Of a stretch of 64,000 bases of DNA, positions 44,217 to 61,456 are shown piece after piece. The DNA lies in the NCBI GenBank assembly GCA_030066975.1, contig JASJAO010000002.1:124001-188000 (forward strand), in the 5' to 3' direction. Below the pieces are notes generated by a model that made no database searches, was not told the DNA's origin, and saw only the letters and a program-made list of their open reading frames with translations. The number at the start of each line of letters is the position of its first letter. Within the stretch, counting starts at the first letter, position 1. This DNA comes from Henriciella sp. Lineage in GTDB: Bacteria; Pseudomonadota; Alphaproteobacteria; Caulobacterales; Hyphomonadaceae. Made by a program: the position numbers and the translations under genes.

Positions 44217-44295
44217 CCCCTCTCCCGCGTCCGGGAGAGGGGAACGCCACAAAATCAATCCGACCGAATTGCGGGGCCCCTTACACTCCCGGCCC
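44217..44295 (+). repeat. Upstream copy of duplicated segment (R3)
   Basis: Starts with the perfect palindrome CCCCTCTCCCGCG/TCCGGGAGAGGGG (44217-44242). The 79 bases up to the next ATG match, in inverted orientation, the DNA upstream of the paralogous gene at 47945-48319. Confidence 0.8.
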
Positions 44296-48319: not shown

Positions 48320-48397
48320 GGGGAGGAAGCATAAGGGCCCCGCAACTCGGTCGGATTGATTTTGGGGCTTTCCCCTCTCCCGGACGCGGGAGAGGGG
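48320..48397 (-). repeat. Upstream copy of duplicated segment (R3), inverted
   Basis: Inverted equivalent of 44217-44295, with the identical palindrome at 48372-48397. The leader between palindrome and ATG differs by only a few bases. Confidence 0.8.
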
Positions 48398-48741
48398 CCA
48401 GGGGTGAGGGCGACAGGCTCGCCGAACATGTTCTATAGTTGCGCTGCGCCGGACGCTTACGCCTGCATCAGTCTAGGGCCCGCGCGTCAATTACAGACAC
48501 CGCGCCCTCATCCCCGACCCTTCTCCTGCATCCGGGAGAAGGGGGCGCGGGGGCCTTAAGTTGGGTGAGGAAACGGGTGGAGCTGTTGGATGGAGAAAAT
48601 TTTATCCATGGTTTTTGGGGCGTGGATCGGGGGATTGGTCCCTGCCCCCTCCGCCCTTTGGGCACCTCCCCCGCTGGCGGGGGAGGAAAGAAACGGGAGA
48701 TAACCAGACTCCGCGGAGCCGGTGGGCTGCACTGTAGGACT
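48398..48741. other. Gene-free repeat-rich stretch
   Basis: No convincing gene. It contains two GC-rich inverted repeats: around 48520-48545 (CTTCTCC / GGAGAAG), and around 48649-48688 (CCTCCGCCCTTTGGGC and CCCCCGCTGGCGGGGG). A segment at 48560-48580 matches, in inverted orientation, 44184-44204 (CCGTTTCCTCACCCAACT). Confidence 0.6.
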
Positions 48742-56795: not shown

Positions 56796-58437
56796 AGATT
56801 CTGCGGCGACCATGCAGGGCGGCGGGATGCGCTCGCGTCTGGTCTCGATCAGCCTGTTGCTGGTCTTTGCCGTGATCGCGGCCAAGGGCGCGGCGGTGGC
56901 GCTATCGGGCGAGCGGGCAACGGGCGGAGTTGCAACCGTGTTTGAAGCGCCGATCAAGCGGGCCGACATTGTCGATCGCAATGGCGACCTGCTGGCGACC
57001 TCAGTGACCGTCTATTCCCTTTTCGCTGACCCGCGCGCGATGATGGATGGTGATCTGGTGGCGCAGGAACTGGCGAGCGTGTTGCCGGGTCTGGATGTTG
57101 AGCGGATCGCAATGCGGCTGTCGAACAAGGAACGCGCCTTTGTCTGGATTGAGCGGGGGCTGACCCCGCGCGAGCGTCAGGCTGTGTTTGATCTTGGGCT
57201 GGAAGGCCTCGGGTTTCGCGAGGAATCGCGCCGGGCCTATCCGCGCGGTACTCTGGCCGGGCACGTGCTTGGCTATGCTGGCGCTGATGGACAAGGTTTG
57301 GACGGGGTCGAATACGCGCTCGATGATCGGCTCGTCAAAGGCGGCGATCCGCTGGCGCTGACCATCGACTCGAACGTGCAGTTCAGTCTGGAAGCAGAAC
57401 TCGCGGCCGCGGTCGGGGAATATGATGCCGAGGCCGGTGCCGGGATCGTCATGGCGGCGCAGTCTGGTGAGGTTCTGGGCCTGGCGAGCTGGCCACCGCT
57501 TGATCCGAACCGGGCGACTGAGCTGAAGCGCGATGACCCGACTTTGCTGAATCGGGCCACCGGCGCGGTGTTTGAGCTCGGCTCTGTGTTCAAGCCGCTA
57601 ACCGTGGCAGGCGCGATTGATGCGGGCGCGGTGCGGCCAAGTGACAAGTTCGACGTGCGCGATCCCCTGATCATTCGCGGTATGGAAATCTCTGACACCC
57701 ATCCGATCGCCGCACGCGCCACGCCAGCCGAAATCGTCTCTGAAAGTTCGAATATCGGCACGGTGAAAGTCGCCTGGCAGATGGGCATGCGCCGTCAGCA
57801 AGAGTTCATGTCCTCGCTCGGTCTGTTTGAACGCTCTCCGATCGAGCTGTCCGGAAGCGCCGCGCCACTCCTGCCGAAGCCGTTTGATGATCTTTCCAGT
57901 GCGACCGCGAGTTATGGACACGGGATTGCGGTCTCGCCAATGGCCTTTACCGCCGCCTTTGCCGCTTTCGCCAATGCCGGAGAAACGGTAACGCCGACCT
58001 TGGTGCTGGACCCTGACCGCAAAGTGCGCCGCAAGCGGGTTCTGTCAGCGCCGACCGCTGCTCTAGTCACCCAAATGATGCGCAGCGCGGTTCTGAGTGG
58101 GACCGGAACGCGGGCTGAAGTGGCCGGGTATCGGATTGCCGGAAAGACCGGGACGGCGGAAAAGCCGATTGATGGGGTCTACTCTGCGACGGAGAATATT
58201 TGCAGCTTTGCCGCGCTGTTTCCCGCAGATAGCCCTGAATATGTCGTATTGATCGTGCTGGACTCTCCCAAGGCGGGTGCGGATCGCGGTCGGACAGCAT
58301 CCTGGAATGCTGCGCCGACGGCTGGACGTGTGATTGAACGAATTGCGCCCATGCTGGGTGTGGAGCCGCGGTTCGAAGATCTGACGCGCTCTGGTCCGCC
58401 GGTTCGCTCCGTCTCTGAGAGAAGGAGTTCGCTTTGA
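56782..58437 (+). CDS. ftsI: Peptidoglycan transpeptidase FtsI (PBP3)
   Basis: A 551-residue septal cross-linking enzyme. A membrane anchor (about 20-36) is followed by the PBP dimerisation domain (RADIVDRNGDLLATSVTVYSLFADP) and the transpeptidase domain with Ser268-x2-Lys271 (ELGSVFKP), the SSN motif (SESSNIGT) and K455-T-G-T-A. A ribosome site (GGGAGGGTGGCG) precedes ATG 56782. The much longer frame upstream (from 56524) is out of frame with ftsL and is not used. The stop overlaps the TTG of murE. Confidence 0.97.
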   Translation: MQAIRDSAATMQGGGMRSRLVSISLLLVFAVIAAKGAAVALSGERATGGVATVFEAPIKRADIVDRNGDLLATSVTVYSLFADPRAMMDGDLVAQELASVLPGLDVERIAMRLSNKERAFVWIERGLTPRERQAVFDLGLEGLGFREESRRAYPRGTLAGHVLGYAGADGQGLDGVEYALDDRLVKGGDPLALTIDSNVQFSLEAELAAAVGEYDAEAGAGIVMAAQSGEVLGLASWPPLDPNRATELKRDDPTLLNRATGAVFELGSVFKPLTVAGAIDAGAVRPSDKFDVRDPLIIRGMEISDTHPIAARATPAEIVSESSNIGTVKVAWQMGMRRQQEFMSSLGLFERSPIELSGSAAPLLPKPFDDLSSATASYGHGIAVSPMAFTAAFAAFANAGETVTPTLVLDPDRKVRRKRVLSAPTAALVTQMMRSAVLSGTGTRAEVAGYRIAGKTGTAEKPIDGVYSATENICSFAALFPADSPEYVVLIVLDSPKAGADRGRTASWNAAPTAGRVIERIAPMLGVEPRFEDLTRSGPPVRSVSERRSSL

Positions 58438-59873
58438 GATTAAGAGATCTGTTTCCGGACCGCACAGGCGCAGAGGGTGACACACCGGTCACCGGACTGA
58501 CCGCTGACAGCCGCAAGGTTGAGCCGGGCTACGTCTTCGCAGCGCTGCAAGGCGTGGTCGCCGATGGGCGAACCTATATTCCGCAGGCGATTACGGCAGG
58601 TGCTGTCGCCGTGATCGGCAAGGATTTGCCTGCGATGGACGCGATTGCGATTGAAGCTGATGAGCCCCGTCTGGCGCTCGCAAAAGCCTCTGCGCGGTTC
58701 TATCCGCAGCAGCCAGGACTGATCGTGGCGATTACCGGCACCAATGGCAAAAGCTCGACGGTCGATTTCCTGCGACAGATCTGGTCGAGCCAAAGCCTGA
58801 AAGCGGCCTCCATGGGCACGCTCGGCGCCTCCGGGCCGAGCGGTCAGATTGATCTCGGCCATACCACGCCCGATCCGGTGGCGATCCATGAGACGCTTGA
58901 AACCCTCGCCCAGGAAGGCGTGCAGCATGTGGCGATGGAAGCCTCCTCGCACGGGCTCGCGCAGTTTCGCCTTGACGCCGTGCAACTGGGGGCGGTGGCC
59001 TTCACCAATCTGACGCAGGACCATCTCGATTATCACCATACAATGGACGCCTATCGCGCGGCGAAGACCCGGCTCTTCTCTGACCTTGCCCCCGCAGGCG
59101 TGCCCGCAATCGTCAATGCCGACAGCGATCAGCGCCTGTTCTTTGAAGAGGCTGCCAGGAATGCGGGGCTAGAGCTCGTTTCGGTGGGCTGGCGCGGTGA
59201 AGACTTGAAGATTGAAGAGCTGATGCCGAAGGCGACCGGGCAACGCCTGTTTGTCAGCTGGCGCGGGGCAAAAGCCGCGATCGATCTGCCGCTGATCGGA
59301 GAGTTTCAGGCCCTGAATGCCCTCACCGCCGCAGGACTCGCCCTGGCAACGGGAACCGAGCTACAGGCCGTGGCAGAGGGGCTCGCCGCGCTCAAGCCGG
59401 TGAAGGGCCGGCTCGAATATGTCGGTGAGACCGCAGAGGGCGCGGGCGTATTTGTGGATTATGCTCATACACCGGCTGGTCTCGATGTGCTGATCCGGGC
59501 GGCGCGTCCGCATACCGCCGGAAAGCTGGTCGTCGTGTTCGGCTGTGGCGGGGACCGGGACAAAGGCAAGCGCCCGCAAATGGGCGAGATCGCCGCCAAG
59601 CATGCCGATCTGGTGATTGTCACTGACGACAATCCGCGCTCAGAGGACCCCGCAGCGATCCGCGCCGAGATCATGGCGGCGGTGCCGGGCGGGGTTGAGA
59701 TTGGCGACCGGGGCGAGGCGATCCGCCAGGCCATTTCAGGCTTGCAGAAAGGCGACACGCTGCTCATCGCGGGCAAAGGCCACGAGACCGGACAGATTGT
59801 CGGCGACACAGTTATTCCCTTCTCGGATCAAGAGACCGCCATCGCGGCGCTCCGGGAGGTGGCCAATGTCTGA
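58434..59873 (+). CDS. murE: UDP-MurNAc-tripeptide synthetase MurE
   Basis: A 479-residue cytoplasmic ligase adding the third amino acid to the peptidoglycan precursor. The ATP loop is TGTNGKSSTV (101-110). The DNPRSEDP motif (about 398-405) marks the meso-diaminopimelate-specific subgroup. GRLEYVGETAEGAGVFVDYAHTP is also typical. The start is TTG at 58434, overlapping the ftsI stop (TTGA), with GAAGGAG before it. Its end, GCCAATGTCTGA, is duplicated 139 bases later at the start of murF. Confidence 0.97.
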   Translation: MRLRDLFPDRTGAEGDTPVTGLTADSRKVEPGYVFAALQGVVADGRTYIPQAITAGAVAVIGKDLPAMDAIAIEADEPRLALAKASARFYPQQPGLIVAITGTNGKSSTVDFLRQIWSSQSLKAASMGTLGASGPSGQIDLGHTTPDPVAIHETLETLAQEGVQHVAMEASSHGLAQFRLDAVQLGAVAFTNLTQDHLDYHHTMDAYRAAKTRLFSDLAPAGVPAIVNADSDQRLFFEEAARNAGLELVSVGWRGEDLKIEELMPKATGQRLFVSWRGAKAAIDLPLIGEFQALNALTAAGLALATGTELQAVAEGLAALKPVKGRLEYVGETAEGAGVFVDYAHTPAGLDVLIRAARPHTAGKLVVVFGCGGDRDKGKRPQMGEIAAKHADLVIVTDDNPRSEDPAAIRAEIMAAVPGGVEIGDRGEAIRQAISGLQKGDTLLIAGKGHETGQIVGDTVIPFSDQETAIAALREVANV

Positions 59874-60015
59874 TCCAATTACTGGCTACAATACCCCCCA
59901 CCCTAACCCTCCCCACAAGGGGGAGGGGACGCCTGCGGCGCTCCCGGTTTTCTCCCTCCCCACTTTGGGGAGGGTCGGGGTGGGGCTGTCTCTGGAGGGC
60001 GCCAATGTCTGATCC
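59862..60015. repeat. Palindromic insert with duplicated murE/murF junction
   Basis: GCCAATGTCTGATCC occurs at 59862-59876 (end of murE) and at 60001-60015 (start of murF). Between them lie long inverted arms CCCCACCCTAACCCTCCCC (59896-59914) and GGGGAGGGTCGGGGTGGGG (59967-59985). Each arm also forms a local hairpin, with GGGGGAGGGG and CCCTCCCC respectively. Before insertion the two genes probably overlapped by 8 bases. Confidence 0.8.
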
Positions 60016-61456
60016 GCTTTGGACCTCTGCAGAAATTGCCGCACCGACGGGCGGGACCGCGACCGATGCGTTCGATGTGACCGGCTTGTCGATTGATACG
60101 CGCAGCCTGCAGCCGGGCGATCTGTTCGTGGCGTTGAAAGATGCCCGCGATGGGCATGATTTTGTTGCCAACGCGTTCAAAGCTGGCGCCAGCGGTGCGT
60201 TGGTCAGCCGCGCGGTGGATGGCGGGCCGCTTGTGCAGGTTGATGACGTGCTTCCGGCACTTGAGGCTATGGGGCTTGCCGCTCGAGATCGGGCGCAAGA
60301 TTGTTACCGCGTCGCTGTGACAGGGTCGGTCGGCAAGACCAGCGTCAAAGAGATGCTGGCGCGGATCTTCCGTGCTTTTGGCCCGGCCCATTGGAACGTC
60401 AAAAGCTTCAACAATCATTGGGGCGTGCCGCTGACGCTCGCCCGCATGCCGCGTGAGACCGAGCGGGCCGTGTTCGAGATCGGTATGAACACACCCGGCG
60501 AGATCGCCCCGCGCTCACGCATGGTTCAGCCGCAGGCCGCGATGGTGACCAAGATCGCTCCGGCCCATCTGGAAGGCCTGGGTAGCATTGAAGGCGTGGC
60601 GCGCGAAAAGGCTGACATCTTCGCCGGATTGCAGCCGGGCGGTGTTGCCATCCTGCCCCTGGATGATGATTTTGCCCCCCTTCTCGCCGAACGCGCCAAG
60701 GCGCTGCAGCCGGACTGTCGGATTATGACTTTCGGGGTCGGGCCGGGCCCGGACGCGTCCGTGATCGAGACGGTGAGCAATGGCGAGACCACGACCTGTC
60801 TGCTGAGCGTGCATGGCCGCGACGTGGCGGTCACGCTGAACGCGGTCGGCGACCACTGGGCGCTGAATGCGGCAGCGGCCCTGCTGGCGGCCTGTCCGGA
60901 TGGAGCTGAACAGGTCGGGGCAGCGGCCAATGCGCTTGATGGCTACACACCCCCGCCCGGGCGCGGCACAGCTGAGACCCTCGCGCTGCCGAAGGGCGGC
61001 GAGATTGTGCTGATAGATGACGCTTACAACGCCAATCCTGAAAGCATGCGCGCGGCGCTGGCGGGCTTTGCTGCCCGGCCATGTACGGGGCGCCGCGTCG
61101 TGGCGCTTGGCGAAATGCTTGAGGTTGGCGCAACATCGGAGGCTGAACATGCCGCCCTGGCCGAGCCGATTCTGGCTGCCGGGGCTGATTTCGTGTTCCT
61201 TGCCGGCGACGGCATGCAACCTCTTGTGGATAAGCTCCGTGAACGAACAGAGTCCAAATGGGCGGTCAAGGCGTCAGAGCTGGAATCTGACCTTAAAATT
61301 ACCTTAAAACACGGCGATCTCCTGTTGCTAAAAGGGTCGAATGCCTCCGGAATGGGACGGCTCGCAGATCACTTGCGCCAATGGAGCGCAGCGGCAGACG
61401 AGACGATGATGGCGAGCGGTGCAGAAAGCGCTGCGAGGGGTAACAATGTTGTATGA
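60005..61456 (+). CDS. murF: UDP-MurNAc-pentapeptide synthetase MurF
   Basis: A 483-residue ligase adding D-Ala-D-Ala to the precursor. The ATP loop is [14 protein letters not shown] (about 107-120), followed by [33 protein letters not shown] and [20 protein letters not shown]. The ATG at 60005 lies in the second copy of the duplicated junction and has GGAGGGCGCCA before it. It overlaps mraY by 11 bases. Confidence 0.96.

Follow-up and report, generated by a model that had tools for sequence, protein, structure and literature searches.

The junction between murE and murF in this genome (G000) probably carries a non-autonomous, REPIN/RIME-like element, which would have entered an 8-nt overlap of the two genes, with a DUF559 protein as its inferred mover. 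The history of this junction given in the original prediction is right in its core. Coordinates refer to the window, that is, the whole stretch of 64,000 nucleotides analysed, and the features are as follows.

58434-59873, plus strand: murE (Mur ligase), open frame as mechanically listed, with stop TGA at 59871-59873.
59855-59876, plus strand: left copy of the doubled murE/murF junction, last 15 nt exact.
59877-59993, no strand: insert of 117 nt between the junction copies, a spacer absent from the 18 overlapping junctions described below.
59896-59927, plus strand: left inverted arm, type A, with an internal hairpin at 59907-59927.
59954-59985, minus strand: right inverted arm, type A, with an internal hairpin at 59954-59974.
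59994-60015, plus strand: right copy of the doubled junction, carrying GGAGG and the murF start.
60005-61456, plus strand: murF (Mur ligase), intact open frame.

The sequence GCCAATGTCTGATCC is found at 59862-59876 and again at 60001-60015, 139 bases from start to start, exactly as had been described for the end of murE and the start of murF. Extended upstream, the direct repeat covers 22 nt with 20 identical, in agreement with the proposed target-site duplication of at least 15 bases. Both copies of GCCAATGTCTGATCC contain the stop/start overlap ATGTCTGA, and in each junction copy GGAGG stands shortly 5' of the ATG. The duplication was expected to spare both genes and the murF ribosome site. 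This is what we see: with murE taken from the mechanical ORF listing and murF starting with ATG at 60005, both frames are intact and match Mur ligase domains, and GGAGG precedes murF. As for the inverted arms, they are present but longer than the 19 bases claimed, with 32 nt each, 84% complementary, one hairpin per arm and a 26-nt spacer between them. The predicted fold of the 161-nt junction stretch has an energy of -84 kcal/mol (z -3.8). An altered murE:murF ratio, as suggested in the original prediction, is hypothetical; the terminator prediction gave nothing at the insert, its sole site falling within murF. Rfam returned only sub-threshold microRNA matches, which were discarded as hairpin artefacts.

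Six further sites in G000 match the insert. Its type-A 19-mer occurs 10 times in this genome, two of these being the murE/murF insert, and is present in 11 of the 29 genus genomes, with none in the backwards-read control. Arms of this same type stand at the DUF559 locus L005/L053 of G000, which has three DUF559 genes and three arm types. At G000:C14:56503-56975, a 134-aa DUF559 gene lies between type-A arms with 36 of 37 bases alike, and this unit follows a gene whose product has a MutS domain. Since type-A arms are found around DUF559 in this genome, the cargo-less murE/murF copy appears to be a small form derived from a DUF559-bearing unit of this kind.

Some further copies were observed in passing. 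The window contains a second family, type C, as a cargo-less pair at about 48370-48555 (CCCCTCTCCCG...CGGGAGAGGGG, with the CCCTCATCCCC arm), together with a single type-C hairpin at 44218-44241 and a single type-B arm at 48665-48686. Elsewhere in G000, two type-A copies (L001 and L002, on contigs C18 and C22) have, by eye, longer similar flanks, pointing to a larger duplicated stretch. A two-arm type-A element of G017 (L275, 18480-18575) corresponds to a single short palindrome in G001 (L265, about 16944), as if its two arms had collapsed into one.

The association between DUF559 and such arms was then scored over 130 loci, which came from searches of the genus, the family and the class, with one Rhizobium locus in addition, and are nearly all from the class of G000. 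This class would be Alphaproteobacteria, to which the best eight among the named MurF matches listed belong, at 40-44% identity. One contig search with one DUF559 query gave 1 relative. From L036-L118, 6 loci were dropped at contig ends (L045, L073, L088, L093, L105, L106) and 7 as weak partial matches (L049-L052, L062-L064), leaving 70; the 60 others were picked from a longer list of matches, with E-value and distance to the contig ends as criteria, and the 130 are a non-random selection. Inverted repeats were scored in the 220 bases on each side of the gene, with a cut-off of 13, and the controls were windows shifted by 1100 bases and ordinary ORFs of two genus genomes. Of the 130 loci, 104 have arms and 26 have none by this test. 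In the controls, the cut-off is reached by 1 of 253 shifted windows and by 8 of 1020 ordinary ORFs, or 5 of 339 for the short ones.

Additional loci gave arms at 7/13 in the same class (controls 0/26) and at 8/15 in other classes of the phylum (controls 1/30). For named plasmid loci, one set had arms at 7 of 10, all 20 controls scoring below 13, and the other, first set at 2 of 8, four of these eight being one site in four strains of Azospirillum brasilense. There are variations of this arrangement. L055, L091 and L156 have a complete element on each side of DUF559, L053 and L067 have a single arm instead of a complete element, and in Azospirillum and Shinella the paired palindrome is only upstream of the gene. 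In terms of the protein itself, residues D44, E55, D57 and H61 are kept in 99-100% of the 130, a nuclease-like pattern.

An IS-like unit was observed in Deinococcus psychrotolerans (L337, 1404-1898), in which DUF559 is enclosed by inverted repeats at the termini, about 56 nt long and differing by one mismatch. It lies directly 3' of the paaD stop codon and is missing in Deinococcus sp. QL22, where the empty paaD/paaZ site is too diverged for a duplication to be read. In Sphingomonas parapaucimobilis YK209, one DUF559 gene is located between sufB and sufC, with no arm pair by the test (L331), and another between two transhydrogenase subunit genes, with an arm pair (L332).

Arm type also follows the relationship of the DUF559 proteins. 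The comparison covered 94 armed loci in 61 genomes; between genomes, the similarity of the arms correlates with protein identity with a rho of 0.24, a value reached by none of 1000 permutations. For genomes with several DUF559 genes, the nearest protein abroad had a more similar arm than the home paralogues in 33 of 50 tests, with 1 tie, and in 25 of the 29 tests where identity reaches 0.65, a limit chosen afterwards and with partly reciprocal pairs. Within the genus, 9 of 11 genomes with type-A arms and 4 of 18 without them have a strong DUF559, whatever its type (E at most 1e-15). This genus table is not clean. The single contig of G017 has 20 type-A matches and no type-A DUF559 was seen on it; of its three strong DUF559 genes, one has type-B arms, one has type-C arms and the third is adjoined by type-C-like matches. 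As a correlation, the association of DUF559 with arms is strong.

A possible, if somewhat doubtful, alternative is that some other enzyme moves the palindromes, with DUF559 as a passenger or as a repair nuclease living beside the hairpins. It would fit with the presence of type-A copies in places for which no type-A DUF559 was seen, and with the VsrA protein of Caulobacter, which contains a DUF559 domain and, in the accessible text of PMC12907096, is treated as a repair nuclease of the Vsr kind and discussed for mismatch repair. Against it, the gene has arms on both sides, their type follows DUF559 relationship across genomes, and D. psychrotolerans has an IS-like unit with long terminal repeats. 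We keep DUF559 as the inferred mover of the repeat. A wider proposal, which we regard as quite possible but tentative, is that DUF559 proteins move widespread bacterial palindromic repeats as a system of the REP/RAYT kind, with a Vsr-like PD-(D/E)XK nuclease at its core, in Alphaproteobacteria, other classes of the phylum and Deinococcus, with cargo-less copies entering essential operons by doubling gene overlaps.

In terms of movement, the evidence is indirect and comes from the comparison of filled and empty sites. This was made between G001 and G017, at one site also against G006 and G012, and gave three clean pairs. At site 1, the empty state is a 4-nt gene overlap and the filled state doubles ATGAT only, which is little more than function requires. 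At site A, the insert is polymorphic: the empty state is a 4-nt overlap between two genes, with 220 and 197 aa, and in the filled state both lengths are kept and 12 of 15 junction bases are doubled. At site B, the insert lies between convergent genes, and its clean filled/empty pair reveals no clear long duplication. The remaining flagged sites are complex replacements, a copy that has collapsed and another that lies within a coding frame. This last kind of position was observed for a type-B element (L287, 9068-9137; G001:C5, about 174047), where the frame has 785 aa across the element in G001 and 702 aa in G017, which lacks it, so that the repeat seems to be read through.

In Azospirillum no empty site was found, all 7 records that cover at least 80% of the query spanning the gene. 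The Shinella empty site, compared with the Sinorhizobium DUF559 locus, has no clear duplication. Direct repeats scoring at least 9 were found at 14 of the 94 armed DUF559 loci, against 2.3 expected. A long target duplication was considered as a rule of the family and rejected, since the seven strongest of these repeats (L055, L091, L135, L129, L121, L164, L132), when read, belonged to palindromic elements on both sides. The expectation of other copies with long direct repeats held only in part: related copies exist, but long repeats are not general. Only insertions that double the overlap leave overlapping genes whole, so survivorship may explain the duplications seen at gene overlaps.

For the age of the insertion, 29 genus genomes were searched, G000 included, of which 20 (again with G000) match MurF in full and could be read at the junction. 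The count omits the 9 genomes with no full MurF match; in these (G009, G013-G016, G019-G022), MurF matches are weak only, at about 25% identity or partial. In 18 of the 20, murE and murF overlap with no spacer, by 1, 4 or 8 nt. In G005 and G011 the MurF match begins a few codons late and the sequence itself has an ATGA overlap. The anticipated 8-base ancestral overlap is seen in four genomes (G023, G027, G028 and G010). With 18 of the 20 genomes free of the spacer, the proposed history holds.

The two junctions with an insert are those of G000, with 131 nt from stop to start, and of its sister species G018, with 179 nt. The insert in G018 has a different palindromic arm type, and ATGTCTGA is doubled there too. 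A single insertion in their common ancestor, with the element type later replaced and G023 branching off earlier, is rather unlikely. It would agree with the murF tree, which groups G000 with G018 (support 89/79), with the doubling of the overlap at the same point in both, and with the 4 type-A arm matches that G018 holds elsewhere. On the contrary, the two inserts differ in arm type, and the G000 duplication looks younger than the species split because both of its junction copies have a lineage-specific GATCC, whose T is absent from the other five clade members. The junction inserts of G000 and G018 are thus probably two separate events, and the one in G000 most likely postdates the split from the nearest relatives compared.

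Movement by a RAYT (Y1 transposase), as for classical REPINs, is very unlikely: the architecture is REPIN-like, but Y1_Tnp has no match in G000 and is matched in 3 of the 29 genus genomes. Finally, hairpins form easily in GC-rich sequence, but a coincidence or a tandem-duplication artefact with no insertion is hardly credible, because the GCCAATGTCTGATCC pair is the sole exact 15-mer direct repeat at most 300 nt apart in the whole window (mean of 0.05 and maximum of 3 in 60 dinucleotide shuffles), related copies occur elsewhere in G000 and genomes with no insert exist, all of which supports the original view that the repeats are real.

The preferred explanation remains that a cargo-less palindromic element, made of an arm, a 26-nt spacer and an arm, would have entered the ATGTCTGA overlap of murE and murF, doubling at least 15 and probably about 22 target bases. 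By this doubling, murE and murF would both have kept their ends and murF its ribosome site. A DUF559 nuclease would most likely recognise and nick the folded arms and also nick a target, acting in trans on copies with no cargo, and staggered nicks at the target, with repair synthesis while the copy is joined, would produce the duplication.

The association of DUF559 with the arms, hypothetical as a mechanism, is the bigger result, and appears untreated in the literature found. No tie of DUF559 to palindromic repeats was found in a search of titles and abstract openings, with most subscription papers outside its scope. Rhizobial genomes contain dozens of such intergenic repeats, whose function is given as unknown in the accessible text of PMC2573895. 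If the proposal is true, an enzyme partner matched type by type would explain them, the DUF559 family would gain a role, and small DNA would have a further way to move, outside the HUH and DDE types. How a repeat can get into a gene overlap of an essential operon and leave both genes unbroken is illustrated by murE/murF.

Compared with known systems, the murE/murF insert has the two inverted hairpins and short spacer (26 nt) of a REPIN and multiple copies in the genome, although copy number is low here (10 arm matches) and G000 has no linked RAYT (Y1_Tnp). In the accessible text of the original reports, REPIN/RAYT systems consist of scattered inverted hairpin pairs with a repeat type per enzyme (PMC2817692; Bertels and Rainey 2011, PMC3116915), and every RAYT gene stands between two inverted REPs (Nunvar 2010, PMC2817692). 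RAYTs were tied to REPs by this bracketing anatomy, and here we see the same anatomy with an unrelated enzyme: the gene is bracketed by inverted repeats of the same type, and a genome may have more than one enzyme, each with a repeat type of its own, but the linked gene is a PD-(D/E)XK DUF559 and not an HUH Y1 transposase.

The insert is also similar to a MITE, being short and cargo-less, with inverted ends and a target duplication at murE/murF. MITEs come from transposons whose target duplications are short and fixed, whereas the duplications here are not constant (15-22 nt at murE/murF, about 15 at site A, 5 at site 1 and none clear at site B). RIMEs are intergenic repeats of rhizobia, and in Sinorhizobium paired palindromes, which we take to be RIMEs, flank DUF559. 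The likeness is to this Sinorhizobium look-alike pattern only; the arm sequence differs here. RIME was reportedly first described, by Osteras in 1995, inside an essential two-component system. Bru-RS1/RS2 of Brucella, likened here by description, are also palindromic interspersed repeats, of 103-105 bp, and the accessible descriptions of both RIME and Bru-RS1/RS2 name no mover.

As for Vsr and VsrA, the likeness is in the DUF559 domain of VsrA and in 3hrl, the nearest solved chain by sequence to the L005 protein. The setting differs, as it is mismatch repair, and the accessible main text of PMC12907096 has no palindromes or transposition. Lastly, for the proposed DUF559-linked element, the arm type of the murE/murF insert matches that of a DUF559 locus in the same genome (type A, L005/L053).
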